DNA of 62,841 nt from Oscillospiraceae bacterium (GTDB lineage Bacteria; Bacillota; Clostridia; Oscillospirales; CAG-272), in NCBI GenBank assembly GCA_015065295.1, contig SVQN01000006.1, positions 1 to 62,841 of the forward strand, given 5' to 3'. Below the pieces are notes generated by a model. The model saw nothing but the letters and a program-made list of their open reading frames with translations, had not been told where the DNA came from and ran no database searches. Position numbers and translations under genes: made by a program. This document shows, piece after piece, positions 1 through 31,772 of this stretch (within the stretch, counting starts at the first letter, position 1; every line of letters begins with the position of its first letter).

Positions 1-434
1 CGATATAGTACGTCAATGTTGAATTCAGCTACGGTTTGTTGGGTTTCCGCGCGTCTTGGCTCGCCCGCCGTCCGCGCTTTTCGTTTGTTCGGTCGGCTGA
101 CATACAGTTTTCTTTGAAAAGCACGAACGGCGACAGCCAAGGAGTGCGGAGGATTCCTTTATGTAGCTGAATTTGATCGTGACGCACTTCATCAACGTAT
201 CTCTCTACGGCGTGGGAAGTCAGGGTCTTGGCGGAGCCTGACTTCCCCGTTATAATTTTCGTAGAATTTCAAACCAACGAAATGTCAGCGGATGGGATCA
301 ACGATATGGCTACGCAGGCACCCAAGAAAATCCCCCATAAAACAAAAAATCTGCTGTACCAAACCGGCTACAACAGATTAAAAAGGTTTTAGAAGGGGTT
401 TGGGGGAACCTTTTCCTCAAAAAGGTTCCCCCAA
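1..434. repeat. Family-1 long palindromic element, copy 1a (left part cut off)
   Basis: This non-coding stretch matches the right two thirds of the elements at 25293-25967 and 31097-31772, in the same orientation. It holds the central block (GAATTCAGCTAC at 21-32 facing GTAGCTGAATT near 163), the inner hairpin GGAAGTCAGGGTCTTGGCGG...GACTTCCCC near 205-248, and the terminal hairpin TTGGGGGAACC/GGTTCCCCCAA at about 399-433. The right end stops 17 bp before the clpX stop codon. No gene is seen in 1-450. Confidence 0.85.
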
Positions 435-450
435 GAACTCCAGTATTCCA

Positions 451-1758
451 TTAATTCTTCAGCCCCAGAACCGGTGCCGCATGGTCGACCACGCATTCCT
501 TGGTGATCGTGACTTTGGCCACATCCTTGCGGGAGGGGAGCTCGAACATGAGGTCGGTCATGGTTTCTTCGAGGATGGAGCGGAGACCGCGCGCACCGGT
601 GTTGCGTTCGATGGCACGTTCGGCGACCGCTTTCAGCGCATCGTCGGAGAATTCCAGCTCGATGTCGTCCATTTCGAACAGCTTGCGGTACTGCTTGACG
701 AGACTGTTCTTCGGTTCCGCCAGAATGCGGACGAGGGCGTCGCGGTCGAGGTTTTCCAGACCGACGATCACCGGGAGACGACCGACGAGTTCCGGGATGA
801 TCCCGTACTTTACGATGTCGTGCGCGGATACGTCCTTGAAGACGCCGTCGCGGAGCTTTTCTTCCTTCTTCTTGATGTCGCCGCCGAAGCCGATGGACGA
901 CTGACCCTTGCGCTGTTCGATGATCTGTTCCAGATTGTCAAACGCGCCGCCGCAGATGAAGAGAATGTTTTCGGTGTTTACCTGAATGAATTCCTGATTC
1001 GGATGCTTGCGGCCGCCCTGCGGGGGAACGTTTGCCGTCGTGCCTTCCAGAATCTTCAGGAGTGCCTGCTGTACGCCTTCGCCCGATACGTCGCGGGTGA
1101 TGGAGCGGTTTTCGCTCCGGCGGGAGATCTTGTCGATTTCGTCGATGTAGATGATGCCGCGTTCCGCCAGTTCGATGTCATAGTCCGCCGCCTGAACGAG
1201 ACGGAGCAGGATGTTTTCCACGTCTTCGCCGACGTAGCCGGCTTCGGTGAGCGTGGTCGCGTCCGCGATGGCAAAGGGAACGTCCAGCGTCTTTGCGAGC
1301 GTCTGCGCGAGGAACGTCTTGCCCACGCCGGTCGGCCCGATCAGCAGGACGTTGCTCTTCTGGATGTCTACATCGTCAGCGACGGTGGCGGTATCCTTCG
1401 CTTTCTTGGAATTTGCCAGCTTCTTCTTCGCGTCGCGGTAGATGAGACGCTTGTAGTGGTTGTAAACGGCCACGGAGAGCGCAACCTTCGCCTTGTCCTG
1501 CCCGATGATGTATTCGTCGAGCGTCGCCTTGATTTCGGCAGGGGACTTGAGGTTGTCGCGGTCGAGCGTGGGCGCGGTGGTTTCTTCGGAGAAATGGTCA
1601 AAAATGATGTCGTTGCAGGCGTCGATGCACTTGTCGCAGATGTAAATCCCGGTCGGCGACGGAATCAGGAACTCTACCTGATTCTCGTTCCGTCCGCAGA
1701 ACGCGCACGACCGTTCAATCTTCATCCGCCCGCCCCCGTTACGAGTAGTCTGAGCCAT
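451..1758 (-). CDS. clpX: ATP-dependent Clp protease ATP-binding subunit ClpX
   Basis: AAA+ unfoldase that recognises tagged substrates and feeds them into ClpP in the cytoplasm. The 435-residue protein has the N-terminal C4 zinc-binding domain (C18, C21, C41, C44), Walker A GPTGVGKT, Walker B with IDEIDK, and the IGF loop (SSIGFGGD) that docks on ClpP. The ATG at 1758 was chosen because it has an AGAAAGG ribosome site and starts directly before the zinc domain; the open frame extends upstream to 1908 but only through repeat sequence. It is the last gene of tig-clpP-clpX. The 269-bp gap to clpP is filled by a pair of hairpin repeats. Length and motifs are normal for the family. Confidence 0.97.
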
Positions 1759-1786
1759 ATTGGTACCTTTCTGAATGGTGTTTTTT

Positions 1787-2014
1787 CTCGGGGAAACCTT
1801 TTTTAAGGAAAAAGGTTTCCCCGAACCCCTTCCAAAAACCTTTAAACGATATGGGATGACAAAGTTCGTGCAGAGCGTTTGTTGCAGAAAATTTTGTAAG
1901 CTGTACAAAAGTAAGGTATTCCTAAATCTGCACCCAACCTTGTCAATCCATCTCGTTTGAAAGTTTTTGAGGTGGGGTTCGGGGAGGAACTTTTTTCAAA
2001 AAGTTCCTCCCCGA
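1787..2014. repeat. Facing pair of G/C-clamped hairpin repeats between clpP and clpX
   Basis: Two hairpins in mirror orientation bound this 228-bp segment: CTCGGGGAAACC...GGTTTCCCCGA at 1787-1824 and CGGGGAGGAAC...GTTCCTCCCCG at 1980-2013. Each is followed inward by a related tail (AACCCCTTCCAAAAACC on one side, its inverse on the other) and by GCAGAG/TCTGCACCC motifs seen at other copies. The stems have no U-run on the exit side, so they are not typical intrinsic terminators. The pair lies inside the clpP-clpX transcript. Confidence 0.8.
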
Positions 2015-2027
2015 TTATTTAATTTAT

Positions 2028-2612
2028 TCAAGGACGATGTTCAATGACCTTGTCGATGAGGCCGTACTGCATAGCGGCGTCGGCGGTCATGAAGTTGTCG
2101 CGCTCGGTGTCGGCGGCGATGATGTCGAGGGGCTTGCCGGTATTCTTGGCGAGGATGGTGTTGAGGCGGTCGCGGGTGCGGAGGATGTGTTCGGCGTGGA
2201 TTTTGATGTCCGTAGCCTGACCCTGTGCGCCGCCGAGGGGCTGATGGATCATGATTTCGCTGTTCGGGAGAGCGAAACGCTTGCCCTTTGCACCGGAGGA
2301 GAGAAGGAACGCGCCCATGGATGCTGCCATGCCGATGCAGATGGTGGAAACGTCGCACTTGATGAAGTTCATCGTATCGTAGATCGCCAGGCCTGCGGAA
2401 ACGGAGCCGCCGGGGCTGTTGATGTAGAGGCTGATGTCCTTGTCCGGGTCTTCGGCTTCAAGGAAGAGCATTTGTGCAACCACGAGAGACGCGGTCACGT
2501 CGTTGACTTCGTCCGCGAGGAAGATGATGCGGTCATTCAGAAGGCGGGAATAAATATCGTAGGAGCGTTCGCCGCGGTTGGTCTGCTGTACGACCATAGG
2601 AACTAATGCCAT
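2028..2612 (-). CDS. clpP: ATP-dependent Clp protease proteolytic subunit ClpP
   Basis: Serine protease that forms the tetradecameric Clp chamber. The 194-residue protein carries the full catalytic triad: S98 in [10 protein letters not shown]123 in [10 protein letters not shown] and D172 in TERDNF. The IN-SPGG oxyanion segment is at 64-69. The short N-terminus before the axial-loop region needs little or no processing. The start has a GGAGG site (ACGGAGGTACC). It lies between tig and clpX on the minus strand, an order widely conserved in bacteria. Hairpin repeats occupy the gaps on both sides. Confidence 0.97.
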
Positions 2613-2682
2613 AATGGTACCTCCGTTAAAATATAATGTGGAAAATCGTCGTAATTTGTTTAAAAAGGGTTTAAAGGGGGTT

Positions 2683-2715
2683 CGGGGGAGACTTTTCCTT
2701 AAAAAGTCTCCCCCG
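2683..2715. repeat. G/C-clamped hairpin repeat between tig and clpP
   Basis: Stem CGGGGGAGACTTTT / AAAAAGTCTCCCCCG with a short loop, preceded on the plus strand by the family tail TTTAAAAAGGGTTTAAAGGGGG. It begins 18 bp downstream of the tig stop, inside the probable tig-clpP transcript. The stem bases differ from the other copies, yet all pair. Confidence 0.8.
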
Positions 2716-2732
2716 AGATGATTGTTCTAAAA

Positions 2733-4034
2733 TTATTCAGCGTCGGTCTTTTCGACTTCGGTGATAACAGCCTTTTCACGAACGAGTTCGATCGCCTTCT
2801 TGACCTTGAGGTCTTCAGCGATTGCTTCGGCAGCAACAACTTCACGAACCTTGTCCGCTTCCATGTTGTACATTTCAGCAAGACGGCCGTATTCTGCTTC
2901 GGTTTCTTCTTCGGAAACAGCGATGTTTTCGAGAGCAGCGATCTTTTCGAGTGCGAGACGGGTCTTAACCTGACGTTCTGCGTCGGGTCTCATCTGTTCG
3001 CGGAGCTTGTCGAGATCGAGACCGGTGTACTTGAAGTAGGTCTGGAGATCAAGACCGTTCATGCGGAGACGGTTGTCGTAGTCGCGTACGAAGTTTTCAA
3101 CTTCGTTTTCGAACATAGCTTCCGGAATTTCAGCGTTGAGCTTTTCGATGAGAGCCTTGATGAGAGCTTCGTCAACCTGAGCGTCTGCCTGCTTGGTGTG
3201 CTGTTCGGTCAGTTTTGCCTGGATGTCTGCCTTGTATTCATCGAGAGTGTCGAATTCGGAAACGTCCTTTGCGAATTCGTCGTCAAGAACGGGGAGTTCG
3301 TTGAACTTGATGGAATTCAGCTTGCACTTGAAGGTAGCTTCCTTGCCGGCGAGGTTTTCTGCGTGATATTCGGTCGGGAAGGTAACAACAACGTCGAATT
3401 CTTCGCCGATGTTCTTGCCGACGATCTGTTCTTCGAAGCCGGGGATGAATGCGCCGGAACCGAGCTTGAGTTCGTGGCCTTCTGCCTTGCCGCCGTCGAA
3501 TGCAGCACCGTCAACGAAACCTTCGAAGTCGATGTTGGTGATGTCGTCCATCTGAGCCGCACGGTCGGTAACTTCGATCATACGGGAGTTGCGGGTCTGA
3601 ACCTTCTTCAGTTCTTCGGCAACTTCTTCTTCGGTAACCTTGACAACCGGGCGTTCAGCGGGGATGCCGAGGTAATCAGCGATTTCAACTTCGGGCTTTA
3701 CGAAGTAGGTAGCGGTGAGAACAACGCCGTTTTCGTCGATGGTTTCAACGTCGAATTCGGGACGGCTTACGATCTTGTCTTCGCAGCCTTCCATAGCAGC
3801 GGTGTATGCGTCGGGAATGATTTCGTTGATGGCGTCTTCGTAGAATACTTCCTTACCGTACATCTTTTCAACAAGCGCACGGGGAGCCTTGCCCTTACGG
3901 AAGCCGGGGATGGTGATGTTCTTTACAGCCTTCTTGTATACCTTGTTGATGGCGGTTTCAAAGGTTGCTTTGTCAACGCTGAAGGTAACCTTCTTCTGGT
4001 TTACAGCGATGGTTTCATTGGAAATGAGGCTCAT
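2733..4034 (-). CDS. tig: Trigger factor, ribosome-bound chaperone and prolyl isomerase
   Basis: First chaperone met by nascent chains at the ribosome exit tunnel. The 433-residue protein has the N-terminal ribosome-binding domain with the signature GFRKGKAPR (residues about 45-53), a central FKBP-like PPIase domain (about 150-245, with ELKLGSGAFIPGFEEQ), and a charged helical C-terminal domain. Start: ATG at 4034 behind AAGGAG. It heads the tig-clpP-clpX operon and has its own strong promoter. Length and domain order are typical. Confidence 0.97.
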   Translation of the reverse strand: MSLISNETIAVNQKKVTFSVDKATFETAINKVYKKAVKNITIPGFRKGKAPRALVEKMYGKEVFYEDAINEIIPDAYTAAMEGCEDKIVSRPEFDVETIDENGVVLTATYFVKPEVEIADYLGIPAERPVVKVTEEEVAEELKKVQTRNSRMIEVTDRAAQMDDITNIDFEGFVDGAAFDGGKAEGHELKLGSGAFIPGFEEQIVGKNIGEEFDVVVTFPTEYHAENLAGKEATFKCKLNSIKFNELPVLDDEFAKDVSEFDTLDEYKADIQAKLTEQHTKQADAQVDEALIKALIEKLNAEIPEAMFENEVENFVRDYDNRLRMNGLDLQTYFKYTGLDLDKLREQMRPDAERQVKTRLALEKIAALENIAVSEEETEAEYGRLAEMYNMEADKVREVVAAEAIAEDLKVKKAIELVREKAVITEVEKTDAE

Positions 4035-4091
4035 TTCTGCTATTCTCCTTGATTGTATCTACATATATTGATTGTTTACACAGCTTTTTAT

Positions 4092-4120
4092 ATTTTACAG
4101 TTTTTTTCTCATATTGTCAA
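4092..4120 (-). promoter_or_regulatory. Sigma-A promoter for tig-clpP-clpX
   Basis: On the minus strand, TTGACA (4115-4120) and TAAAAT (4092-4097) are separated by 17 bp, about 60 bp upstream of the tig start. Confidence 0.8.
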
Positions 4121-4220
4121 TGACAAATGCGGAAAAGAATTTGAATATTTTGTGAAATCTTATTGCACTTTGACAAGGGTGTACAAAACGGAGCGGAACG
4201 GCGGGGATTTGCTTGGGAAT

Positions 4221-4940
4221 TTACCCCACCTTTACCGGATAAAAATCCAGAAAATCCGCCGAGATCAGGTGCATCCGGATTCCCTCGTGCTCGAAATTCC
4301 CCGGAACGTTGTATACCCCGTGGATATGGCCGAAATAACAGTCGCGGATGCCGCGCGATTTCAGTACCTCAACGAGCGGTTCGCAGATAAAGTCGCCGAA
4401 AACGGGCGGAAAGTGCAGGAAAACGACCGTTTCCGCGTCCGGATTCGCCGCTTTCAGTTTGTCCGCTTCGTCGAGGGACATCCCCAGCCGCAGGCATTCC
4501 CGTGCGACGATCTTTTCGTAGTCTGTCGGCATCGGCGTATTCTGGAGCCGCTGCTCGATGTACCAGCCGCGCGAGCCGGCAAGAATGAGGTTTTCCACAG
4601 GATGTGCGCTGTTCTGCATGAATTCCAGCGTGGTGAAGCCTTCCGCTTCGCAGAGTGCGTGCATTTTTGCAAGCGATGCCCACCAGTAGTCGTGGTTGCC
4701 GCGCGAGAGCAGCTTTTTTCCCGGCAGACGTTCGATGAACGCGAGATCATTCCGCGCTTCGTCCAGCGTCATTCCCCACGAAATGTCGCCGGGGACGATG
4801 ACTGTGTCGCCGTTTTCCACCAGCGCACGCCAGCGGGTTTCGATTTTTTCCGTGTGACCTGTCCAGCGGCGGCCGAATTTGTTCATCGGTTTGTTGACCG
4901 TGTGCGCCAGATGCAGGTCGGCGATTGCCCAGACTGCCAT
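4221..4940 (-). CDS. Calcineurin-like metallophosphoesterase
   Basis: Predicted two-metal phosphohydrolase of 239 residues. The metal and active-site motifs are in order: ADLHLA (D-x-H, residues 8-10), PGDISWG, GNHDYWW, FLHFPP and GHIHG. The compact size fits small cytoplasmic phosphoesterases; the substrate cannot be read from the sequence. Its ATG overlaps the thrC stop by one base (TAATG), which implies translational coupling to thrC and puts it last in the seven-gene operon starting at apgM. No signal peptide is visible. Confidence 0.9.
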   Translation of the reverse strand: MAVWAIADLHLAHTVNKPMNKFGRRWTGHTEKIETRWRALVENGDTVIVPGDISWGMTLDEARNDLAFIERLPGKKLLSRGNHDYWWASLAKMHALCEAEGFTTLEFMQNSAHPVENLILAGSRGWYIEQRLQNTPMPTDYEKIVARECLRLGMSLDEADKLKAANPDAETVVFLHFPPVFGDFICEPLVEVLKSRGIRDCYFGHIHGVYNVPGNFEHEGIRMHLISADFLDFYPVKVG

Positions 4941-6448
4941 TATACGCGGAAGACCAGCGCGGGCATTTCCGACGGGTCGATCGTTTCCGTGAAGCGGACG
5001 GGCAGGGAAAGCGGTGCCGTCAGCGGGGAGGGAATTGCTGTGTCCGTATTCGCGGACAGGGTATTCAGGATGCCTTCGATATCGTCGCCGGTTTCCAGAC
5101 CGAGCGCGCCGCAGACATCCGCCGCGAACTTGTACGGGCTTGCCGTGGATGCGAGAATCACGGGCGTATTGTCGCCGGTTTCCGCACGGTACTTCTTCAC
5201 GCAGCCCATGCCGACCGCGGTGTGCGTGTCGATGAGGTAATGATGTGCGTCAAAGATTTCGCGGATGGTTTCGCGGGTTTCGTCTTCGCTCATGCAGCAG
5301 CCGGCGAAGGTTTCGCGGATTGCTGCCATCAGCGCGTCGGGAGCCGTATACTTACCGGTGGATTTGAGTTCCGCCATCAGTTTGCCGGTCAGTTCCGCGC
5401 CGCCGCAGACGGACAGGAGACGTTCCAGATTGCTGGAAATCAGAATGTCCATGGACGGGGAAATCGTCTTGTGGAATTCGCGGGTACGGTCGTACACGCC
5501 GGTGTTCAGGAAGTCCGTCAGGACGTTGTTGCTGTTGGAGGCGCAGATCAGCTTCGCCAGCGGAATGCCCATTTCACGCGCGATGTACGCCGCGAAAATG
5601 TTGCCGAAGTTGCCGGTCGGAACGCAGACGTTCACCGGTTCGCCGGACTTGATTTTTCCGCTGTTCACGAGATCGAGGTATGCGGAAACGTAGTACACGA
5701 TCTGCGGCGCGAGACGACCCCAGTTGATGGAGTTTGCACTGGAGAAGAAGAAACCGCTGTCGTTCGCCTTGTCCGCGAAAGACGCGTCGCCGAAGATGGC
5801 CTTCACGCCGTTCTGCGCGTCGTCGAAGTTGCCGTTGACCGCCGCGACATAGACGTTGCCGCCGAGCGTGGTCGTCATCTGGAGCTTCTGCATCCGGCTG
5901 ACCCCGTCCACGGGATAGAAAACGGTGATCTTCACGCCGTCCACGTCGGCATATCCTTCGAGAGCTGCCTTGCCGGTGTCGCCGGAGGTCGCTACGAGGA
6001 TGTGCGCGGTACGCGTCTCACCGGTCATTTTCAGTGCGCGGGAGAGAAGGCGGGGCATGATCTGGAGAGCCATGTCCTTGAATGCGGACGTGGGACCGTG
6101 CCAGAGTTCGAGAACATAGGTGCTGTCGTCGAGGTTATAAAGAGGAGCCGCGCCGCCGGAGAGATAATTTTCCCCGGAAACTTCGGCGAATTTTTCTTTG
6201 GAATACGCTGCGTGACAGTCGGAAACCAGGCCTTCGCGGTCGTAGTCGTCGAGGAATTTTGCGAGGATGTATGCCGCGCGGTCTTCGTAGGACATTGCCG
6301 CGAGAGCGGTCAGATCGTCTGCGGTCAGCGCGGGAATTTCACAGGGGATGTAGAGGCCGCCGTCCGGTGCAAGCCCTTCCTTGATGGCTTCGGCGGCGGA
6401 TACGGTGTGGGGGAGACTGCCAAAGTCTCTTGTGCTTCTGTAGTTCAT
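4940..6448 (-). CDS. thrC: Threonine synthase
   Basis: PLP enzyme that converts O-phosphohomoserine to threonine in the cytoplasm. The 502-residue protein is of the long, yeast/E. coli-like class. Signs are the N-terminal FGSLPHTVSAAEAI segment, the PLP lysine K124 in HGPTSAFKDMALQ, ATSGDTGKAAL (phosphate-binding serine/threonine loop), and PTGNFGN. ATG at 6448 has an AAAGGAAG site; longer in-frame readings run into yraN. No hom or thrB is adjacent; it sits in a housekeeping operon and is coupled to the following phosphoesterase. Confidence 0.95.
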   Translation of the reverse strand: MNYRSTRDFGSLPHTVSAAEAIKEGLAPDGGLYIPCEIPALTADDLTALAAMSYEDRAAYILAKFLDDYDREGLVSDCHAAYSKEKFAEVSGENYLSGGAAPLYNLDDSTYVLELWHGPTSAFKDMALQIMPRLLSRALKMTGETRTAHILVATSGDTGKAALEGYADVDGVKITVFYPVDGVSRMQKLQMTTTLGGNVYVAAVNGNFDDAQNGVKAIFGDASFADKANDSGFFFSSANSINWGRLAPQIVYYVSAYLDLVNSGKIKSGEPVNVCVPTGNFGNIFAAYIAREMGIPLAKLICASNSNNVLTDFLNTGVYDRTREFHKTISPSMDILISSNLERLLSVCGGAELTGKLMAELKSTGKYTAPDALMAAIRETFAGCCMSEDETRETIREIFDAHHYLIDTHTAVGMGCVKKYRAETGDNTPVILASTASPYKFAADVCGALGLETGDDIEGILNTLSANTDTAIPSPLTAPLSLPVRFTETIDPSEMPALVFRV

Positions 6449-6470
6449 GATATGCTTCCTTTGCGGAATT

Positions 6471-6890
6471 TCAGAGATTGTAGGTTGATTTTCTTGAGAA
6501 TTTTCCGGTTTTGCGGACGGCGTTCTCGAAATGCCGCACATCCAGAACGCGGTAATCCGGAACCTTCGGATCGGCGTAGACCTCGATCACGTCGATGCGG
6601 AAGAATTTATCCGGCGCGTGTTCGGCGAGGTACGCTTCCGCCGCACGGACGAGGATCGCCTGTTTTTTCGCATCCACGGCTTCCGCAGGGGTTCCGAACG
6701 GTGCGGACGAGCCGGGAATCTGCCGCCGGGTTTTGACTTCGGCGAACACGAGAAAAATGTCGGTTTCCGCGACGAGGTCGATCTCCGCGTGACCGATGTG
6801 CAGATTCCGGTGCAGAATGCGGAATCCGCGCGATTCCAGATACGCGGCGGCGGTCGTTTCACCGGAGATTCCGAGGGTTTTTGTGTCCAT
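6471..6890 (-). CDS. yraN: YraN/UPF0102 family endonuclease-like protein
   Basis: Small protein of 139 residues with the UPF0102 fold, related to Holliday-junction-resolvase-type nucleases. Seen: GETTAAAYLESRGF at the N-terminus, then H-AEIDLVAE and FVFAEVKTRR, which form the E-x(n)-D-x(n)-E-x-K nuclease-like core. It starts 7 bp after rnhB and is followed 22 bp later by thrC. rbgA-rnhB-yraN is a recurrent cluster in Firmicutes. The precise function of the family is not well established. Confidence 0.9.
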   Translation of the reverse strand: MDTKTLGISGETTAAAYLESRGFRILHRNLHIGHAEIDLVAETDIFLVFAEVKTRRQIPGSSAPFGTPAEAVDAKKQAILVRAAEAYLAEHAPDKFFRIDVIEVYADPKVPDYRVLDVRHFENAVRKTGKFSRKSTYNL

Positions 6891-6897
6891 TTATTTT

Positions 6898-7557
6898 TTA
6901 TTTCGGCTGTTTTTCGAGGAATTTCTGCTTCGCCGCTTCCAGCTTATCCTTGTCCCGTTCCAGAAACCGCAGGAACGACTTCCGGTGGATCGGACACGGC
7001 CCGTTCATGTAGACGGCGAGCTTGTGTTCCGGCGTGGGATAGCCCTTGTGCTTTGCAAAATTGTAGCCGGGATAGTCGGTTTCGTAGTCCGCGCACATCC
7101 GGTCACGGGTCACTTTCGCAAGGACGGACGCCGCCGCGATCGACTGCGACAGAGCATCCCCTTTGACCACCGGAATGCTCGGGATGCCGAAATCGGTGTT
7201 CCGGTTGCCGTCCACGAGGATCACGTCCGGTGTGACGGTTTCGCGGACGATTGTCACCGCGCGGCGCATCGCCATGAGGGACGCGGCGAGGATGTTCATT
7301 TCGTCGATTTCCTCATGCGTGGCGTGGGCAATGCCGTAAGCGACGGCTTTTTCGAGGATTTCGTCGTACAGTGCCTCGCGCTTTTTTTCGGTCAGTTTTT
7401 TCGAGTCGTTCAGTCCCTCGATGACCAGTCCCTCCGGAAGAACGACCGCCGCAGCAACGACAGGGCCCGCGAGAGGCCCCCGACCGGCTTCGTCCGTTCC
7501 GCAGACAATGCCGTACTGCGCGGCATACCCGGCGTCAAAAACGGCAAGTTCACTCAT
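6898..7557 (-). CDS. rnhB: Ribonuclease HII
   Basis: Removes ribonucleotides and RNA from RNA:DNA hybrids. The 219-residue form from ATG 7557 carries D22-E23 in GTDEAGRGPLAGPV, D116 in ILVDGN, and the conserved KGD-S-AAASVLAKVTRD segment. The open frame extends upstream through rbgA, but ATG 7557 gives the family's normal length and overlaps the rbgA stop by 8 bp, typical of coupled genes. The C-terminus has the HPPxH-like KGYPTPEHK segment. Confidence 0.95.
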   Translation of the reverse strand: MSELAVFDAGYAAQYGIVCGTDEAGRGPLAGPVVAAAVVLPEGLVIEGLNDSKKLTEKKREALYDEILEKAVAYGIAHATHEEIDEMNILAASLMAMRRAVTIVRETVTPDVILVDGNRNTDFGIPSIPVVKGDALSQSIAAASVLAKVTRDRMCADYETDYPGYNFAKHKGYPTPEHKLAVYMNGPCPIHRKSFLRFLERDKDKLEAAKQKFLEKQPK

Positions 7558-8512: not shown

Positions 8513-8525
8513 AATATCTCCTTGG

Positions 8526-8634
8526 CTAAGGGGTAAGGACTAATGGTGAATGGCTGTCCGGATTTTCCGTCAGCAGACAAAGGGGAGGTTTGGACATAGT
8601 CATTCGTCATTCACCCTTAGTCCTTAGTCATTTC
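8526..8634. repeat. Imperfect inverted repeat between rbgA and lepB
   Basis: TAAGGGGTAAGGACTAATGG near 8526-8545 faces CACCCTTAGTCCTTAGTCA near 8611-8630. The arms also carry GGTGAATGG / CATTCGTCATTCAC. The right arm extends into the last codons of lepB (stop at 8624). It is unlike the other repeat families in the window. A long stem here could affect the mRNA between lepB and rbgA. Confidence 0.6.
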
Positions 8635-9250: not shown

Positions 9251-9260
9251 GATATCCCCC

Positions 9261-10481: not shown

Positions 10482-10600
10482 AATCTATGCACGACCTTTC
10501 GCAGAAATGGCAGCGTTTTGAATGAATTATAAAATAAAACGATACCAAGTAATAGATATTTTTTATATCATCAGAAACACCAATTTCATGATAATATATT

Positions 10601-11120: not shown

Positions 11121-11144
11121 TTTCGGATAATTCTATCCTCTGAA

Positions 11145-12025: not shown

Positions 12026-12410
12026 GTTCGACAGAGAAACTGTAAATTTCAGCTTCCCTTTGTCATTCCGAGGACTTATCACGAACAATTATAACTGAAG
12101 TTCTTGTCCGAGGAATCTTTGCACTCTCCTGTGTCAGCCGTAGGTGATGTCCGTGGTTATCGAACAATTTCAGCTTCAGAGGTTACACTTTGTCTTTACG
12201 AACACTTTGTACCAATAAAGGAATAGCAGATTATTCGTTATGTACAAAGTTGAACCTTTGAAGCTGAATAGAGGAGCGGCACACAGACATTCCTTACGGT
12301 TTACACAGGAGAGTGCAAAGATTCCTCGGACAAGAACTAACGCTGTAATTTCAAGAGATAAGTCCTCGGAATGACAACGGGAAGCCGGGGAATATGGAAA
12401 TCCGTCGAAC
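12026..12410. repeat. Family-2 long palindromic element, copy 2a
   Basis: A 385-bp imperfect palindrome bounded by GTTCGAC (12026-12032) and GTCGAAC (12404-12410). Left-arm blocks TGTCATTCCGAGGACTTATC and CTTGTCCGAGGAATCTTTGC face their complements on the right (GCAAAGATTCCTCGGACAAG, GATAAGTCCTCGGAATGACA). The centre contains TTCAGCTTCAGAGGTT / AACCTTTGAAGCTGAA. No coding frame is credible. Related copies are at 49361-49790 and 53460-53855. Confidence 0.88.
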
Positions 12411-12464
12411 AGATATTACTTCAAAATCCAATGCTCCGTTGGATTCCGGTATGAGTTGTATCGC

Positions 12465-17202: not shown

Positions 17203-17402
17203 CATTTAGATTTTATAGAATTATGGAAAGTTTCTGGGGGACGCTTGCGCGTGGAGGGAAGAATACCTCGTTTTTTCAGATGCAGCTGAGGGATGAAGCG
17301 AACCCCTGTTGATATCCAGGGAGTTTCGCGGACTGCGGTCCGCGACCAAGGACGCTGTCCTTGGAACCTGCGACCTTTCGAGAAAGGTCGATCAAAGCTT
17401 TT
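17203..17402 (-). repeat. Family-4 element with three tandem hairpins, copy 4a
   Basis: Three consecutive stems: TCGCGGAC/GTCCGCGA (17326-17345), CCAAGGAC/GTCCTTGG (17346-17364) and GACCTTTC/GAAAGGTC (17372-17389). They adjoin a conserved block on the minus strand (CAGGGGTTCGCTTCATCCCT and ACGAGGTATTCTTCC). The same layout is at 34477-34660 with different but still paired stem bases. It fills the 305-bp gap between mreB and the MATE gene and has no coding frame. Confidence 0.8.
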
Positions 17403-17426
17403 CGGCGGACAAGGTGAAGCTGAAAT

Positions 17427-18548: not shown

Positions 18549-19020
18549 AGGAAGAAAAATGTCCTTCGGACATTTTTCAAAATTAATCGCCTACGCGGCG
18601 GGCGCACAAATGGAGTTCACGTAGTGAACTCCGTCAGACGCCGCCCCTTTGTGAATTGCCGGCTTAGAAGGCGTTCGTGGGACTCGGCCTTAAGGCCTCG
18701 GACAGATAGCGGTTTGCCCGCATTCAAATTGTTAGGAAGAGACAAGGTTGGGTACAAATCTGTCCAAATTGTATGTTCAGTAGAAACAGCCGTGAGGGAA
18801 AACTGCAAATTTAGGTTCCACCTTTTTGATAAACTGTATTTCTGTTCTTCCGTGCGATTTGCTGAGTGCAAACCGCTGTATGTCTGAGCCCTCAAGGGCG
18901 AGTCCCACATACGTCAAGCCGGGAATTCATAAAGGGGCGGCGTCTGAGCCCCTTTATGCGCCGTCCCGCGCAGGGACATAAAATTGAAAAATGACCGGAA
19001 CGGTCATTTTTCTGCCTTCC
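18549..19020. repeat. Family-3 long palindromic element, copy 3a
   Basis: About 470 bp with terminal hairpins AAAAATGTCC/GGACATTTTT (18555-18577) and AAAAATGACCG/CGGTCATTTTT (18987-19011). The arms of about 180 bp are imperfect inverted repeats: left GACGCCGCCCCTTTGTGAATT and GTGGGACTCGGCCTTAAGGC face right GGGGCGGCGTC and GCCCTCAAGGGCGAGTCCCAC. The centre holds TTCAGTAGAAACAGCCGTGA. Copy 3b (39629-40077) is about 80-85% alike by eye. No gene lies in 18444-19140. Confidence 0.87.
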
Positions 19021-21137: not shown

Positions 21138-21156
21138 TGAAAGGAGGACATTCAAC

Positions 21157-22629: not shown

Positions 22630-22647
22630 TTTCCGGAGAATATACCC

Positions 22648-23613: not shown

Positions 23614-23622
23614 ATCCAAATG

Positions 23623-23655
23623 AAAAACACCGTATCACGCTGATACGGTGTTTTT
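23623..23655. terminator. Bidirectional terminator after the Gld-like operon
   Basis: AAAAACACCGTATCA (23623-23637) pairs perfectly with TGATACGGTGTTTTT (23641-23655); A- and T-runs on both sides allow it to stop both this operon and the convergent lipoprotein gene. Confidence 0.92.
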
Positions 23656-23666
23656 TTGATGAAAGG

Positions 23667-25181: not shown

Positions 25182-25223
25182 GTGTTTTTCCTGTTTCTAT
25201 ATAATGTGATTAATTACCTGCAA

Positions 25224-25252
25224 ATTATACCGTATTGCTGGTATTTTGTCAA
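25224..25252 (-). promoter_or_regulatory. Promoter of the first solute-binding lipoprotein
   Basis: Minus-strand TTGACA (25247-25252), 17-bp spacer, TATAAT (25224-25229), about 43 bp before the ATG. Confidence 0.85.
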
Positions 25253-25292
25253 GGGGGAATGATGGGTTACAAAATATCGTGGGGTACAAATT

Positions 25293-25967
25293 CTTGGGGA
25301 AACCTTTTTGAGGAAAAGGTTTCCCCAAACCCCTTCCCAAACCTTTTTAATCGGTTGTTGCCGGTTTGTTTGGCTGGTATGATGGGGAGGGGATTTTTTG
25401 AAATATTCCGTGGAGTACGGCTTAAGAGTGTTCGGCCCGTTGACGTGGGGCTGGTTTGAAATTCTTCGAAAATCGTTCTGGGGAAGTCAGGCTCCGCCAA
25501 GACCCTGACTTCCCACGCCATATTACGATTGCGTGATACAATACGTCACTTTTGAATTCAGCTACGGTTTGTTGGTTTTCCGCGCGTCTTGGCTCGCCCG
25601 CCGTCCGCGCTTTGCGTTCGTTTGGTTGGCTGACATACAGTTTTCTTTGAAAAGCACGAACGGCGTCAGCCAAGGAGTGCGGGGGATGACGGTATGTAGC
25701 TGAATTCAAACGTGACGCACTTCATCAACGTATCTCTTCCGGCGTGGGAAGTCAGGGTCTTGGCGGAGCCTGACTTCCCCGTTATAATTTTCGAAGAATT
25801 TCAAACCAACATCATGTCAGCGGATGGGATCAACGAAATGTCAGCGCAGGCACCCAAGAAAATCCCCCAGAAAAGAAAAAATCTGCAATAACCAAATGGC
25901 TACAACAGATTAAAAAGGTTTTAGAAGGGGTTTGGGGGAACCTTTTCCTCAAAAAGGTTCCCCCAAC
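25293..25967. repeat. Family-1 long palindromic element, copy 1b
   Basis: A complete copy, 675 bp. Terminal hairpins: TTGGGGAAACC/GGTTTCCCCAA (25294-25328) and TTGGGGGAACC/GGTTCCCCCAA (25932-25966). The arms of about 270 bp are inverted repeats sharing GGTTTGAAATTCTTCGAAAA and the inner hairpin GGGAAGTCAGGCTCCGCCAA. The centre begins and ends with GAATTCAGCTAC / GTAGCTGAATTC and includes TTGGCTGAC/GTCAGCCAA. It fills most of the 880-bp gap between the lipoprotein gene and recD2. No coding frame is credible. Confidence 0.9.
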
Positions 25968-25993
25968 GTTCCCCTCCCCCACTCAAGTTTTCG

Positions 25994-26022
25994 TTGACAA
26001 ACCCCCACAAAGCGGGTATAAT
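25994..26022 (+). promoter_or_regulatory. Promoter of recD2
   Basis: TTGACA (25994-25999), 17-bp spacer, TATAAT (26017-26022), 40 bp before the start codon and 27 bp after the end of element 1b. Confidence 0.85.
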
Positions 26023-26061
26023 ATAAGTACGATTTCAGAAAGTTACCGGAGACCAGACCGC

Positions 26062-28329
26062 TTGAAGAATTTTTACCCGCAGGAACCCCTGCCGAACAAT
26101 GCACCCGAAAAGGAACCCGAAGAGTTTGTTTCCGGGATCGTCGATTCGATTATTTATCAGAACGAAGAGAATGGATATACCGTCTGCGAGATCGAGGATT
26201 CCCTCGGCGAACCTGTGACCGTCGTCGGGATCATTCCCTATCTCACCGAGGGGGACAAGATTACCGCCTACGGAACGTGGACCAATCATCCGACCTACGG
26301 ACGGCAGTTCAAGGTCGATTCCTATGACAAAACGCTCCCCGCCGAGGAAGGCGATATCCTCCGCTACCTCGGTTCCGGGGCTGTCAAGGGGATCGGCCCA
26401 AAAACCGCGCAGAAAATCGTCGAGCAGTTCGGGACGGACAGCTTTTCCGTCATCGAAAATCACCCCGAATGGCTCAGCGAGATTCCCGGCATCACCAAGA
26501 AAAAGGCCGAGGCCATCAGTGAAAATTTCAAGTCCATCTCCGGCGCGCGCTCCGTCATGATGTTCTGCCGCGACTATTTTACGCCGCAGACCGCCATGAA
26601 AATCTATCAGCGATGGGGAGGTGCCGCCGTTGATCGCATCCGGAACAATCCCTACCGGCTGTGCGAGGACTTCCACGGCATCAGCTTCAGCCGCGCCGAC
26701 CGGATTGCCATGGGTATGGGACTTGCTGCCGATTCGGACGAACGTCTCATGCACGGGCTGGTATACGTTCTCCGGCAGGAAGCCGTGCGTTCCGGACATA
26801 CCTGCATCCCCGACCGGGAGCTTCTGCGGTGCGCCGTGGAGCTTCTGTTTGCCGGAGAGACGAATTATGCCGAAAAAGTCGCGGAGTGCATCGAAAAAGC
26901 GGTCGGCAAGCTCAAGCTCATCCCGCTGGAACTCGGCGGTACCCGCTATATTTTTGATCCGCTGATGTACCGCGCCGAGACCTATATCGCCAAAAAAATG
27001 AAGCAGATCCGCGAACGCTGTCCCAAAATGAACGCCCGCGACAGCGTCCGGATGATCGAATCGTCCGAAGCGAAAAGCGGCATCACCTACGCCCCCATGC
27101 AGAAAAAAGCTCTCACGCAGGCGATGGCCGACGGCGTGATGATCCTGACCGGCGGTCCCGGTACGGGGAAAACGACCATCATCAAGGGGCTGATTTCGAT
27201 TTTCGAGGCTCTCGATTTTGACGTTGCCCTTGCCGCGCCGACCGGACGTGCCGCAAAGCGTATGAGCGAAGCGACCTCGCATGAAGCGAAGACGATCCAC
27301 CGCCTTCTCGAAATGGATTTTTCCGACGAACACGGCTCCAAGTTCCTGCGCGACGAAAACAATACCCTCGACGCGGACGTTGTTATTATCGACGAAGCAT
27401 CCATGATCGACGTGCAGCTCATGGAATCCCTGCTGAAGGCGATCAAAAACGGCGCCAGACTGATTATCATCGGGGACAGCGACCAGCTTCCGTCCGTCGG
27501 GGCGGGGAATGTCCTCGGCGACCTGATCGAATCGGGCGCGTTTCCCGTCATCCGCCTGACCGACATTTTCCGGCAGTCCGAACAGAGCTTGATTATCACC
27601 AATGCCCACCGCATCAACGCCGGCGAACTGCCCGACACCAGCCGGAACGGGGCGGATTCCGACTTTTTCTATCTCCGCCGGGAAAGCGAAGAGGCGATTG
27701 CCGCGACCGTGATCGACCTCGTACAGAACCGTCTGCCGCGTTCCTACGGGGCGGATATCGTCCCGAAGATTCAGGTGCTGACCCCGTCGAGAAAGGGGCT
27801 GTCGGGGACGGATATCCTCAATGCGGGTCTGCAGGAGGCACTGAATCCGAAAATGCCCGGAAAGGCGGAAAAAAAGTCCCGCGACGTGATCTTCCGCGTC
27901 GGGGACCGGGTCATGCAGACGAAAAACAACTACGAAATCGAGTGGGAAACGGACGACGGCAAGACCGGCGTGGGCGTGTACAACGGCGACATCGGCGTGG
28001 TGACGGCCATCGACCGCGAGGACAACCTTGTGACCATTGCGTTTGACGAGCGCGTCTGCACGCTGGACGCGGCACAGCTCGACGAAGTCGATCATGCGTA
28101 CGCGATCACGGTGCATAAAAGCCAGGGAAGCGAGTATCCGGTGGTGATTATTCCGCTGTATTCGTGCGCGCCGATGCTTCTGTCCCGGAATCTGCTGTAT
28201 ACGGCGGTGACGCGTGCGGCGAAAATGGTGATTCTGGTCGGAAAACCGGGTGTTCTCCAGCAGATGATCGACAACAACCGCCACACCATCCGCTGTACGA
28301 TGCTGAAACATTTTCTGACGGAGGAATGA
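26062..28329 (+). CDS. recD2: RecD2-type superfamily 1B DNA helicase
   Basis: 5'-3' helicase of 755 residues acting in DNA repair outside RecBCD. Order of features: N-terminal OB-like domain (about 20-100), helix-hairpin-helix AVKGIGPKTAQKI with a second GITKKKAEAI, then the motor with Walker A GGPGTGKTT, VIIDEASMID (motif II), GDSDQLPSVG (motif III), and VHKSQGSEYPVV (motif VI). The SH3-like insertion expected near GDRVMQTKNNYE is present. The start is TTG with GGAG ten bases upstream; no ATG fits. A phosphoesterase follows 3 bp later. Confidence 0.95.
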   Translation: MKNFYPQEPLPNNAPEKEPEEFVSGIVDSIIYQNEENGYTVCEIEDSLGEPVTVVGIIPYLTEGDKITAYGTWTNHPTYGRQFKVDSYDKTLPAEEGDILRYLGSGAVKGIGPKTAQKIVEQFGTDSFSVIENHPEWLSEIPGITKKKAEAISENFKSISGARSVMMFCRDYFTPQTAMKIYQRWGGAAVDRIRNNPYRLCEDFHGISFSRADRIAMGMGLAADSDERLMHGLVYVLRQEAVRSGHTCIPDRELLRCAVELLFAGETNYAEKVAECIEKAVGKLKLIPLELGGTRYIFDPLMYRAETYIAKKMKQIRERCPKMNARDSVRMIESSEAKSGITYAPMQKKALTQAMADGVMILTGGPGTGKTTIIKGLISIFEALDFDVALAAPTGRAAKRMSEATSHEAKTIHRLLEMDFSDEHGSKFLRDENNTLDADVVIIDEASMIDVQLMESLLKAIKNGARLIIIGDSDQLPSVGAGNVLGDLIESGAFPVIRLTDIFRQSEQSLIITNAHRINAGELPDTSRNGADSDFFYLRRESEEAIAATVIDLVQNRLPRSYGADIVPKIQVLTPSRKGLSGTDILNAGLQEALNPKMPGKAEKKSRDVIFRVGDRVMQTKNNYEIEWETDDGKTGVGVYNGDIGVVTAIDREDNLVTIAFDERVCTLDAAQLDEVDHAYAITVHKSQGSEYPVVIIPLYSCAPMLLSRNLLYTAVTRAAKMVILVGKPGVLQQMIDNNRHTIRCTMLKHFLTEE

Positions 28330-28332
28330 TTT

Positions 28333-29313
28333 ATGGATTCGATGACCGAAAAACAGCGATATTTTTCCCAGCCTGTCGAGCGCATCACCGGCATGGACGA
28401 CACGCCCGAGCGCAGTCTGTTCCGCCTGACGGAATCGGGAGTATATTTCCGTGAACACCGGATTTCTGCCGGACATCCCGGTGATCCCGTGGAAATTGTG
28501 CAGATCACGGACGTACATTTCAATTACTGCGATGATATTGACCTGCAAAATCCCGAACTGGCGTATACGAAGGAATGCCGGAAATGGCTTGCGGACGGTG
28601 CGTCTGTCGGGGGGATCAAAAACGCCATGGGCTTTGCGAAGTTCGCCGATCAGATCGTAATTACCGGCGACACGCTCGATTATCTCTCCCACGGCGCGAT
28701 GGAAATGACAAAAACGTACATCTGGGACGTGGAGCCGACTGCAATTCTTGCCATCGGCGGACACGAACTGACCCGGCAGATGCAGACCGGCCGTCCGAAC
28801 GAAACGACGCTGGAATCCCGGTACGCCGATTTGCAGCGGGAATGGAAGCACGACGTATCGTATGTTTCCCGCGTGATCCGTGAACGGGTAATGGTGATTG
28901 CCATGGACAACGACTGCGGACGCTACCGTCCGGAGCAGTTCGAAAAACTGACCGCCGATCTTGCGGAGGCGCGGTCGAAAGGGTACGTTGTCCTGCTGTT
29001 CCAGCATGAACCGATCGACACCGGACGACCGGAGGACGCGTGCTGTCCGACCCTGTGGGAATGCGACGGTGCGTCGTACAATTTCCGGCACTGCATCGGT
29101 TCGCCCGAACGGAACGATTCCGAAACGGCGAAGGCGGTGTACCGGCTCATTACGTCCTCCGCTGATGTGATCCGGGGGATTTATTGCGGACATCTGCACA
29201 GCGCGTATTACACGGAAGTGATTGCGGGGGACACCGTGATCCCGCAGTATGTGCTGGAAGGAAATCCCTACAACGGTCAGGTGGGTCATGTAATGCGGAT
29301 TCTTGTGGAGTGA
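28333..29313 (+). CDS. Calcineurin-like metallophosphoesterase
   Basis: 326 residues with the metal-binding series QITDVHF, ITGDTLDYLSHG, GGHE (in place of GNHE), LLFQHEPID and CGHLHSAYY. The GGHE change replaces the usual asparagine that binds metal and phosphate, an odd feature that may alter activity. It lacks a signal peptide. It is 3 bp after recD2, so likely co-transcribed; a link to DNA repair is only positional. It is not closely similar to the phosphoesterase at 4221. Confidence 0.85.
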   Translation: MDSMTEKQRYFSQPVERITGMDDTPERSLFRLTESGVYFREHRISAGHPGDPVEIVQITDVHFNYCDDIDLQNPELAYTKECRKWLADGASVGGIKNAMGFAKFADQIVITGDTLDYLSHGAMEMTKTYIWDVEPTAILAIGGHELTRQMQTGRPNETTLESRYADLQREWKHDVSYVSRVIRERVMVIAMDNDCGRYRPEQFEKLTADLAEARSKGYVVLLFQHEPIDTGRPEDACCPTLWECDGASYNFRHCIGSPERNDSETAKAVYRLITSSADVIRGIYCGHLHSAYYTEVIAGDTVIPQYVLEGNPYNGQVGHVMRILVE

Positions 29314-29362
29314 TGAATATATAAATGGCGGCAAATCTGCGGGTTTGCTGCCATTCTCATAG

Positions 29363-29391
29363 TTGACAAAAGTTTGCGGATGTGATATAAT
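29363..29391 (+). promoter_or_regulatory. Promoter of the second solute-binding lipoprotein
   Basis: TTGACA (29363-29368), 17-bp spacer, TATAAT (29386-29391). The leader of about 135 nt has no obvious riboswitch. Just upstream an imperfect stem AATGGCGGCAAA/TTTGCTGCCATT (29324-29356) lacks a U-run. Confidence 0.85.
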
Positions 29392-29531
29392 TCATTTATA
29401 CATTTTGTACGGTATTTTGGCTGAATTTTGAAGGGATTTATAAATTCCTCTAAGAAATCTGTATACAGGATTTTTTCAGCTCTCACACAGAACCCAATTG
29501 GAACGAATTATATAACGAAAGGAATCTCATC

Positions 29532-31034
29532 ATGAAAAAACAGCGACTGATCTCCATGCTGCTGGTTCTGACGATGCTGTCGTCATCCACGGCACTGCTT
29601 TCCTGCTCGAGCGGCACGGAAAATGCGGACGAAATGGTATCCTCCGCAGAAAATCCCTCGGCCAGCGAAGAAATTGCGGTAGAAACGGAGGAAGCGAAGG
29701 ACTCTCTGGAAGCCCGCATGGACGTAGCGGACAATCTTCCGGACAAGAAATTTGACGGACGCACCTTTGCGGTCATCGGCGACGACGCCTGCACCGACCA
29801 CTATCTGTCCGAAGAACTGAACGGCGAACCGGTCAACGACGCGGTCTTTGAACGAAACTCTCTCATCAGCGAACGTTTTGACGTAGCTCTGGACGCAGTT
29901 GTTTACGCGGAAGACCAGATCACCGGTCAGGCGAAGAACGCGGTTGCGGCAGCCGATGACGCTTTCCAGATGATGGCGTGCCACATCATTTACCTCGGTA
30001 TGTCCGCGACGGGCGACTATATGTACAACTGGTATGATCTTCCGAATGTAAACTTCGATCAGCCGTGGTGGTCCGACAGTACCGTGACCGACCTGAAGTA
30101 CAAGGACAAGGCGTTTGTAGCGATCGGTGACTTTGCGCTGTCCGCACTCGGTTCGACCTACTGTATGTTCTACAACAAGGTCATGGCGGAAAACTACGGT
30201 CTGCCGGATATGTACGGTCTTGTTGAAGAAGGCGGCTGGACGATCGACAAGCAGTACGAATTCAGCAACGGCGTATACACCGACACGAACGGCGACGGTA
30301 TCCGCGACATCAACGATACTTACGCGCTGTCCACGGACTGCAAGAGCAACGCAAACGCATACCTGTGGGCATTCGGCAAGAAGATTGCGACCCAGCAGGA
30401 CGACGGTACCTACGTTCTGGACTACTACGACGAAAAGCTGGTATCTCTGGTAGAAAAGCTGTACAATCTCTACTACGAAACCGACTATGTATACTTTGAC
30501 ACGACGAGCCACGGTATCGGTCAGAACGTATTCCCGCTCGGCAACAACCTGTTCACGAACGGTGCGATCGGCTGGATGAACGGCGTTCTCCGCGACGTGG
30601 AATTCGACTACGGTATCATCCCGTACCCGAAGTGGGACGAAAAGCAGGCAGAATACTACACGAGCGTTGACGGCGGTCACGAAGGTCTGGCAATTCTGAA
30701 GACCATCACCGACCCGGAATTCGTCGGCATCATCAGCGAAGCACTGAACGCCGAAAGCTGGAAGCGCGTTGTTCCCGCATACTACGACGTCTCCCTGAAG
30801 TTCAAGGGAACCCGTGACGAACAGTCCATCGCCATGCTCGACCGCATCGTTGACTCCCGTATCTTCGACTTCGGCTACGTTTACGGCGGCTGGGGCTGTG
30901 TCTTCTGGATCCAGTACCTCCTCGAAGGCGCGTCCAAGGACATCACCTCCTACTACGAAAAGAACTTCAAGCCCTACAACAAGACCATGGAAAAGGTCTT
31001 CGAGACCTTCGACGAATACACCAAGGAACCGTAA
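29532..31034 (+). CDS. Extracellular solute-binding lipoprotein (paralogue)
   Basis: 500 residues with a signal peptide and lipobox LLSC (C25), an acidic linker, then an SBP body. It shares with the 23667 protein the block EELNGEPVNDAVFERN and the later GVYTDTNGDGIRDINDTYA region, which resembles the calcium-binding-like DxNxDG loop found in some SBPs. No transporter subunits are adjacent. Strong promoter and terminator make it monocistronic. Codon use is strongly biased towards favoured codons, suggesting high expression. Confidence 0.88.
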   Translation: MKKQRLISMLLVLTMLSSSTALLSCSSGTENADEMVSSAENPSASEEIAVETEEAKDSLEARMDVADNLPDKKFDGRTFAVIGDDACTDHYLSEELNGEPVNDAVFERNSLISERFDVALDAVVYAEDQITGQAKNAVAAADDAFQMMACHIIYLGMSATGDYMYNWYDLPNVNFDQPWWSDSTVTDLKYKDKAFVAIGDFALSALGSTYCMFYNKVMAENYGLPDMYGLVEEGGWTIDKQYEFSNGVYTDTNGDGIRDINDTYALSTDCKSNANAYLWAFGKKIATQQDDGTYVLDYYDEKLVSLVEKLYNLYYETDYVYFDTTSHGIGQNVFPLGNNLFTNGAIGWMNGVLRDVEFDYGIIPYPKWDEKQAEYYTSVDGGHEGLAILKTITDPEFVGIISEALNAESWKRVVPAYYDVSLKFKGTRDEQSIAMLDRIVDSRIFDFGYVYGGWGCVFWIQYLLEGASKDITSYYEKNFKPYNKTMEKVFETFDEYTKEP

Positions 31035-31049
31035 GGGGTTCCTGCACAG

Positions 31050-31076
31050 GCCGCTGGTTTTTCCGGCGGCTTTTTT
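31050..31076 (+). terminator. Intrinsic terminator of the second lipoprotein gene
   Basis: GCCGCTGG (31050-31057) pairs with CCGGCGGC (31063-31070), followed by TTTTTT. Confidence 0.85.
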
Positions 31077-31096
31077 CTATAGACGGGGCGTTTTTT

Positions 31097-31772
31097 CTTG
31101 GGGAAACCTTTTTGAGGAAAAGGTTTCCCCAAACCCCTTCCAAAACCTTTTTAGGCGGTGGTAGCCGGTTTGTTTTGGTTTATATGATGGGGAGGGGATT
31201 TTTTGAAAAATTCCGTGGAGTACGGCTGAAGAGTGTTCGGCCCGTTGACGTGGGGCTGGTTTGAATTTCTACGAAAATCGTTCTGGGGAAGTCAGGCTCC
31301 GCCAAGACCCTGACTTCCCGCGCCATTTTTCGACTGCAAAATACAGTACGCCACTTTTGAATTCAGCTACAGTTTGTTAGTTTTCCGCGCGTCTTGGCTC
31401 ACCCGCCGTCCGCGCTTTTCGTCAGTTCGGTCGGCTGACATACAGTCTTTTTTGAAAAGCACGAACGGCGACAGCCAAGGAGTGCGGGGGATAACTTACC
31501 GTAGCTGAATTCAAAAGTGGCGCACTATATCAACGTATCTTTTCCGGCAACGGAAGTCAGGGTCTTGGCGGAGCCTGACTTCCCCGTTATAATTTTCGTA
31601 GAATTTCAAACCAACATCCTGTCAGCGGATGGGATCAACGAAATGTCAGCGCAGGCACCCAAGAAAATCCCCCAGAAAAGAAAAAATCTGCAATAACCAA
31701 ATGGCTACAACAGATCAAAAAGGTTTTGGAAGGGGTTTGGGGGAACCTTTTCCTCAAAAAGGTTCCCCCAAG
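31097..31772. repeat. Family-1 long palindromic element, copy 1c
   Basis: A complete 676-bp copy in the same orientation as 1b, about 90% alike by eye. It begins 20 bp after the lipoprotein terminator and ends 12 bp before the metK stop codon. The same terminal hairpins, inner GGAAGTCAGG hairpins and central GAATTCAGCTAC / GTAGCTGAATTC are present. No gene lies in 31035-31783. Confidence 0.9.

Follow-up and report, generated by a model that had tools for sequence, protein, structure and literature searches.

A giant intergenic palindrome family in an Oscillospiraceae bacterium and its sister species, with signs of concerted evolution

The window analysed here, bases 1-62841 of contig C55 (62,841 nucleotides, nt) in the draft genome of an Oscillospiraceae bacterium (G000; 2.9 Mb, 135 contigs, 71% complete), carries three copies of a ~675-bp imperfect palindrome, a non-coding, dispersed, intergenic and sharply bounded element. 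G000 holds at least 42 places with more than 150 nt of this palindrome, 34 of which exceed 560 nt, and dozens more copies are found in each of two sister species, G012 and G022, which are goat and water-buffalo cecum metagenome-assembled genomes (MAGs; RGIG1778 and RGIG7288, each matched by an identical 100-nt sample). Within G000, variants more than about 15 nt apart are close to linkage equilibrium, and copies of one genome resemble each other more than they resemble copies at orthologous sites, a pattern of concerted evolution in which the copies of each genome appear to behave as one recombining pool. We give about even odds to the view that ectopic recombination with short tracts has homogenised a giant REPIN/BIME-like repeat, breakage of the palindrome being the likely trigger.

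The first-pass annotation of this DNA, made from its letters, had described three copies in the same orientation, and these lie where it placed them, copies 1 and 3 each being ~92% identical to copy 2:

1..435, + strand: copy 1 of the 675-bp palindrome, right ~433 nt, 92% identity over query positions 243-674
25293..25967, + strand: copy 2, full length, between divergent gene starts
31097..31772, + strand: copy 3, full length, between convergent gene ends

Copy 1 starts at base 1 of the contig and its left ~240 nt are missing. With copy 2 as the query, element places were counted in the fetched stretches, and the search beyond the window that had been proposed revealed a far larger family. The G000 count is a lower bound (40 of 260 first-look candidates were scored) and includes, at locus L031, two halves of one copy. 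As lower bounds too, 28 places were fetched from G022 and 29 from G012, 14 of each being longer than 560 nt. Few candidates were scored per genome across the rest of the genus; at that depth 7 of 24 congeners gave any match, mostly short, and large copies occur in 4 of 25 genomes: G000, G012, G022 and G015, the last with at least one partial copy, at a contig start. An exact core-hairpin pattern had no match in genome-contig and viral-contig collections, from which the bacterium's own genome was perhaps left out.

Linkage and turnover of the copies

Linkage was measured in 29 of the 34 long G000 copies (those more than 80% identical to the consensus); G022 supplied 10 of its 14 and G012 supplied 12 of its 14. 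Over 150 common variable columns in G000, mean r2 was 0.357 for sites 1-3 nt apart and fell to 0.044 in the 15-39 nt class and to 0.038 in the 200-499 nt class, against a permuted value of 0.036 (standard deviation 0.0015 at 15-39 nt and 0.0006 at 200-499 nt). On the assumption that no mutation recurs, the Hudson-Kaplan minimum amounts to 100 exchanges over 676 nt. The decay also holds for transversions alone, where r2 drops from 0.490 to 0.037, and this speaks against recurrent transitions. Six alleles, each a short run of several bases (TATA/AACG and GCTA/TCAG among them), co-segregate internally, and all four combinations are seen in 4 of 5 neighbouring block pairs. Decay is slower in the 10 G022 and 12 G012 copies. 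In G022, the two arms also share sequence, with 377 of 534 variable left-arm 12-mers recurring inverted in right arms compared with 82 and 224 in the other species' arms. Arm-to-arm covariation was considered as a driver of the variation and set aside, as mirrored positions in G000 show linkage close to the background level (0.022-0.054 versus 0.036); the same measure is noisier in the sisters, reaching 0.154 in G022 (background 0.111) and 0.167 in G012 (background 0.091).

A mosaic of this kind might instead come from assembly chimerism or from strain mixing within MAGs, an explanation to which we give little credence. The sisters are draft MAGs and G000 is fragmented, and many contigs end inside element copies (7 of 42 places in G000, 13 of 28 in G022 and 14 of 29 in G012). 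Linkage is lost, however, in less than 21 nt, within single reads and ordinary assembly words, and such a loss is hard to make by misjoining reads at shared words. Decay lengths also differ among the species, and the same architecture recurs in three genomes, though the names of the two sisters point to one project. The assembly artefact against which the first-pass annotation had warned is therefore unlikely.

Across species, 24 pairs of places have common flanking DNA, at 74-93% identity. Eight match on both flanks and two involve the halves of the L031 copy; the pair L059-L087 is a single flank matched twice and hence is not among the two-sided pairs. Presence at a good number of sites thus appears, from these shared flanks, to date to the common ancestor of the three species. 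In an orientation-free comparison of 13 full-length orthologous pairs (7 two-sided and 6 one-sided, not independent, as some copies recur), orthologue identity was 0.718 and that of non-orthologous cross-species pairs 0.719 (Wilcoxon p = 0.84), while paralogues stood at 0.839, above the orthologues (p = 0.0002), with a shuffled baseline of 0.603. Because orthologues are no closer than non-orthologues and paralogues are closer, the repeats have turned over faster than the surrounding DNA. The nearest neighbour of a copy lies in the same genome for 61 of 62 copies, and identity between any two copies is at most 0.932. In an orientation-free neighbour-joining tree, the copies of G000 and of G012 are each monophyletic, and the smallest clade holding those of G022 also holds G012 copies. 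A tree oriented by whole-element score made all three species monophyletic and was not used for conclusions; re-orientation by the centre, which reveals G012 centres in mixed orientation relative to their arms, loses the monophyly of G022 and G012, and the orientation-free comparison was therefore relied on.

In-place conversion and separate re-insertion at the same sites would each leave paralogues closer than orthologues. Five G000 sites were looked up in both sisters: those of the two full-length window copies, 2 and 3, together with L005, L010 and L013, which were picked as having no flank-matched partner, so that the sample leans towards absence. Four of the ten look-ups returned, by reading, centre-deleted or truncated large elements (copy 3 and L013, both sisters; the G022 version at the copy-3 site is also classifiable as a mini-element, a short form described below), one an element cut off by the end of its contig (L010 in G022) and one a solo terminal unit (L005 in G012); no element was found in the other four (copy 2 in both sisters, L005 in G022 and L010 in G012). 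Given these reduced versions at orthologous sister sites, the element was probably ancestral at some sites and has been reduced or is missing at others. At the copy-2 site the block with the RecD2 gene, whose closest named relatives are in RGIG1778 (goat, 90% protein identity) and RGIG7288 (water buffalo, 89%), is re-ordered in both sisters, and G012 has a solo unit at the far end of RecD2. The whole segment 25976-31034, comprising RecD2 and its neighbours between copies 2 and 3, is inverted or re-ordered in both sisters, with breaks near element sites.

Re-insertion is the core of a possible, if doubtful, alternative, namely that the family is a non-autonomous transposable element (MITE-like or RAYT-driven) that was amplified independently in each species and came back to the same favoured positions between genes, which may be marked by solo hairpin units, the shuffling of alleles coming from recombination during copying. 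The defined ends and the dispersed, intergenic copies agree with this, solo units and mini-elements offer possible targets, and the site that in G000 carries the full element L005 has a solo unit in G012 and none in G022. RAYT-like proteins are encoded in G000 and G022 (62.4 and 68.9 bits, under the NCBIfam cut-off of 80). Against it, 19 copies with both ends anchored show no target duplication (best z 1.5 over the offsets and lengths tried), no two copies come closer than the identity ceiling given above, and the reduced forms that both sisters carry where G000 has copy 3 and L013 suggest that the common ancestor already had the element. Nor was a RAYT found in G012 (73% complete), and a terminal-unit profile gave no hits at E <= 1 in the stretches around the RAYT-like genes (L117-L123, with stretches of 3.1 and 3.3 kb around the genes; the positive control gave 6). 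With no terminal units around these genes, a Y1/RAYT transposase was rejected as the cognate enzyme.

Architecture and genomic context of the element

The building block of the family is a terminal unit of ~58 nt, consisting of a ~34-nt hairpin followed by AAACCCCTTCC-AAAACCTTTTT. In the large element two such units lie head-out around a palindromic interior of ~560 nt (675 minus two 58-nt units), in which the arms vary, two GGAAGTCAGG hairpins occur and the centre, bounded by GAATTCAGCTAC and GTAGCTGAATTC, is asymmetric and conserved. The terminal and internal hairpins and the centre are all present as first described. The units also align as direct repeats (medians 35 nt, 80% identity), because the hairpin is itself palindromic. 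In copy 2 and at smaller sites in the window these parts are:

25293..25350, + strand: left terminal hairpin unit of copy 2, head outward
25480..25514, + strand: left GGGGAAGTCAGG...CCTGACTTCCC hairpin of copy 2, read in the sequence
25554..25707, + strand: central block of copy 2, GAATTCAGCTAC to GTAGCTGAATTC, asymmetric and conserved
25746..25780, + strand: right GGGAAGTCAGG...CCTGACTTCCCC hairpin of copy 2, read in the sequence
25910..25967, - strand: right terminal hairpin unit of copy 2, head outward
1788..2011, no strand: mini-element, ~224 bp, two terminal units head-out
32988..33157, no strand: mini-element, ~170 bp, two terminal units head-out
2660..2717, - strand: single terminal unit
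34351..34411, + strand: single terminal unit, adjoining a flavin mononucleotide (FMN) riboswitch at 34220-34340
60975..61030, - strand: single terminal unit

The motif TTGGGG lies near the boundary in 60 of the 77 G000 ends away from contig edges, and TGAGGGG is at the boundary in 5 of the 17 ends that lack it. Outside the ends a TTT/TTC stretch is fairly conserved, and further out there is almost no conservation save a weak GGG; the ends for this comparison were chosen by a motif containing TTGGGG, the invariance of which is there by construction. Outside large elements the terminal unit occurs 72 times in the scanned loci (E <= 0.01), 6 of these in called frames, and neighbouring outside units are head-out in 12 of 12 pairs, forming mini-elements of 170-241 bp with related interiors of roughly 55-125 nt. 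The mini-element at 32988..33157 sits inside a called frame (31784-33178), upstream of the start of the synthetase N-terminal domain and below an S-adenosylmethionine (SAM) riboswitch at 33226-33317. This riboswitch and the FMN riboswitch are on the minus strand, and both lie near terminal hairpin units.

The inverted arms of 270 bp described in the first-pass annotation are there, though imperfect, with a mean of 227 Watson-Crick positions per copy (7721 over 34 G000 copies). Its view of the copies as apparently non-coding holds, no conserved reading frame being present: the longest open stretch in the 34 long copies has a median of 85 codons (maximum 134), compared with 81.5 (140) in shuffled sequence, and its frame is not the same across copies. 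The central block, whose conservation was assessed in an alignment (A1) of 23 copies, is among the parts best kept between species, consensus identity being 0.69-0.86 at positions 271-405 and low across much of the arms, in a comparison in which the orientation of G012 is mixed. The L034 copy has lost its centre. In the copy at L031:2739-3956, ~557 bp take the place of the central loop and include a small helix-turn-helix gene, whose best NCBIfam hit is below the cut-off; this gives the palindrome the look of a possible carrier of cargo.

Copy 2 with short flanks has a predicted folding energy of -378 kcal/mol, versus -213 +/- 7 for 20 shuffles (z = -22), and the first-pass annotation had offered a very large structured RNA as one identity for the element. 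Such an RNA, whether trans-acting or a module of 3' untranslated regions, would accord with this extreme predicted stability, with the conserved asymmetry of the centre and with an excess of G.T over A.C mismatches across all G000 positions (686 versus 547). In helical context, however, G.T and A.C stand at 324 and 357 in G000, 116 and 131 in G022 and 107 and 134 in G012, with no G.T excess, and over all positions the sisters lean to A.C (184 versus 221 in G022 and 216 versus 251 in G012). The + strand folds better in 21 of 34 copies in G000 and in 6 of 14 and 7 of 14 in the sisters, no consistent signal for one strand, while a scan of the window at Rfam gathering thresholds returned the SAM and FMN riboswitches only, and divergent genes flank 18 of the 59 copies for which both neighbours were called. 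A structured RNA therefore finds no support, and we judge it very improbable.

Gene neighbours come from frame-based gene calling, and labels cover the 59 of 99 elements that have both neighbours within 1.5 kb. Besides the 18 between divergent genes, 11 of these lie between convergent and 30 between tandem genes. The median gap is 26.5 nt to gene 3' ends (70 gaps) and 95.5 nt to gene 5' ends (88 gaps), and the 7 of 99 elements that overlap a called frame by more than 60 nt were taken to reflect over-long calls. In the window, the earlier description of the copies as lying just outside gene ends is right for copies 1 and 3, which adjoin 3' ends, and wrong for copy 2, which is placed 112 and 95 nt from the starts of its divergent neighbours, a 504-aa protein without a Pfam match (- strand) and the RecD2-type helicase (+ strand). 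Copy 3 has as neighbours a 500-aa protein without a Pfam match and S-adenosylmethionine synthetase.

This regular spacing would suit a chromosomal element kept by selection, be it an insulator or a block between genes to transcription from either side, or a site bound by a nucleoid or recombination protein, with homogenisation as a secondary effect; we think this unlikely. The asymmetric centre is kept between species, and variation is lower at predicted-paired than at unpaired positions (mean minor fraction 0.095 versus 0.166), which may mean either that the folded form matters or that low variation at paired positions is a by-product of exchange. Set against this are the large copies in just 4 of the 25 genus genomes at the search depth given above, the variation among sister sites, the occurrence of every gene orientation and the lack, by reading, of a T-run on the exit side of the terminal hairpins.

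Three further sets of repeats were seen in the window. An unrelated ~345-bp palindrome family (12040-12420, 49399-49735 and 53465-53850) has some two dozen places in G000 (identity roughly 74-85%) and no match in G012, G022, G015 or G024. A third repeated palindrome (18672-19000 and 39678-40047) reaches 97% identity over one 75-nt stretch, and an inverted repeat pair of 167 nt, 75% complementary, joins two distant intergenic regions (17239-17405 and 34470-34636).

Proposed mechanism of homogenisation

In the reading we prefer, a giant REPIN/BIME-like repeat homogenised by recombination, the palindrome would extrude from the duplex or fold on the lagging strand, and the folded form would be broken by SbcCD-type cleavage or would stall the fork. 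Restoration from another copy, through very short conversion or template-switch tracts, would then homogenise the family within a species and shuffle short alleles, and the same repair might sometimes delete the centre or rearrange neighbouring genes. We infer the breakage and repair step, and likewise whatever first spread the units. In E. coli, rearrangement at an interrupted palindrome is reported to be under the control of SbcCD and RecA (PMC3315005). SbcD is encoded in all three species, and loss of SbcCD finds no support on this ground as the cause of palindrome persistence, SbcC not having been searched for.

Several observations weigh against this reading. SbcD scores over the cut-off in 22 of 25 genomes of the genus, whether or not they have the family, and so does not discriminate. 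Textbook RecA conversion has longer tracts than the ~15 nt at issue here, between copies ~85% identical, and this leaves room for a dedicated process. The r2 at 15-39 nt remains slightly over permutation, a small residue; arm sharing is weak in G000 (174 of 958 12-mers, versus 74 and 109 in other species' arms) and absent in G012 (11 of 438, under the controls of 62 and 51), where arms and centres are of mixed orientation. The closeness of paralogues is also what independent re-insertion makes, the evidence for conversion consists of population patterns rather than of events caught directly, and the three genomes are all MAGs of 71-74% completeness.

More tentatively, the room left by such short tracts may be filled by a dedicated copying process with the hairpin ends and the asymmetric centre as its recognition sites, exchanging ~10-20 nt at a time and making of these ~700-bp palindromes a 'sexual' population. 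If true, a sexual-like population of repeats would exist on a bacterial chromosome, with alleles approaching linkage equilibrium. Intergenic palindromic repeats are usually seen as short mobile parasites that spread and decay; here a large one occupies a number of orthologous sites and yet appears homogenised within species, with linkage nearly gone within ~15 nt. The family further suggests that dozens of long imperfect palindromes are tolerable in cells that encode SbcD, and it serves as a warning that such repeats break draft assemblies.

Comparison with known repeat systems

The closest likeness is to REPIN/BIME repeats, built on the repetitive extragenic palindrome (REP), with which the family shares an inverted pair of terminal hairpin units, the palindromic form of the entire element, an intergenic location and the occurrence of singlets. 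Of 430 REP doublets in P. fluorescens SBW25, 93% are inverted, and in a GI REPIN 71 bp separate the first residues of the two end motifs (PMC3116915); spacers of REP dimers are mostly 20-100 bp (PMC3733652), and REPIN populations persist for millions of years (PMC8049555). Unlike REPINs, the element is a 675-bp palindrome with a large conserved interior and copies near linkage equilibrium. Its large form lies far outside the spacer range of ~20-100 bp, which the mini-elements fit or nearly fit. A GTAG or CGTC tag beside a palindrome of 20-40 bp was not found, the bases outside the hairpin being TTTC or similar, and a search for the GTAG palindrome located it in 1 of 221 loci, only inside a RAYT-like gene. 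That gene (L119:1357-1965 in G000) contains two in-frame GTAG palindromes, GTAGGGACACGGCGTGCCGTGTCC and its inverse. The layout is thus like that of REPIN/BIME repeats, and the tests of the tag and of the RAYT flanks failed.

The first-pass annotation had also suggested a miniature inverted-repeat transposable element (MITE), and the family is indeed a dispersed, bounded, non-coding, multicopy intergenic repeat with inverted symmetry. MITEs are typically under 500 bp; their terminal inverted repeats measure ~4-30 bp, and younger copies have direct repeats (PMC10969869). The strict features are wanting here, as the element is ~675 bp long, is one palindrome throughout in place of short terminal repeats, and has no target duplication that we could find. 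Old MITEs can lose their target duplication with age. No autonomous partner with the same terminal repeats was seen in the fetched stretches, Y1 transposases being the only ones searched for genome-wide.

BOX, RUP, Correia and NIME repeats resemble the family as composite intergenic repeats, and about half of the pneumococcal insertions are present in all sequenced strains (PMC3049150). They differ in being typically under 200 bp, and BOX and RUP give target duplications. A survey of stem-loop repeat families built 92 models, 67 of them of 31-200 bp and others larger, with two over 1 kb (PMC2267715), so that size alone is not new; the part of that survey available to us has no test of concerted evolution between species. 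Literature on concerted evolution, REP repeats, palindromes, MITEs and mosaics, surveyed in part and so weak evidence of novelty, yielded no such element. A review of 1988 reportedly asked, by its title, whether REPs evolve by gene conversion, and with this family that old question about REP-like repeats becomes directly testable. Structured repeat families are themselves common, and what is unusual in this one is its size and its population structure.

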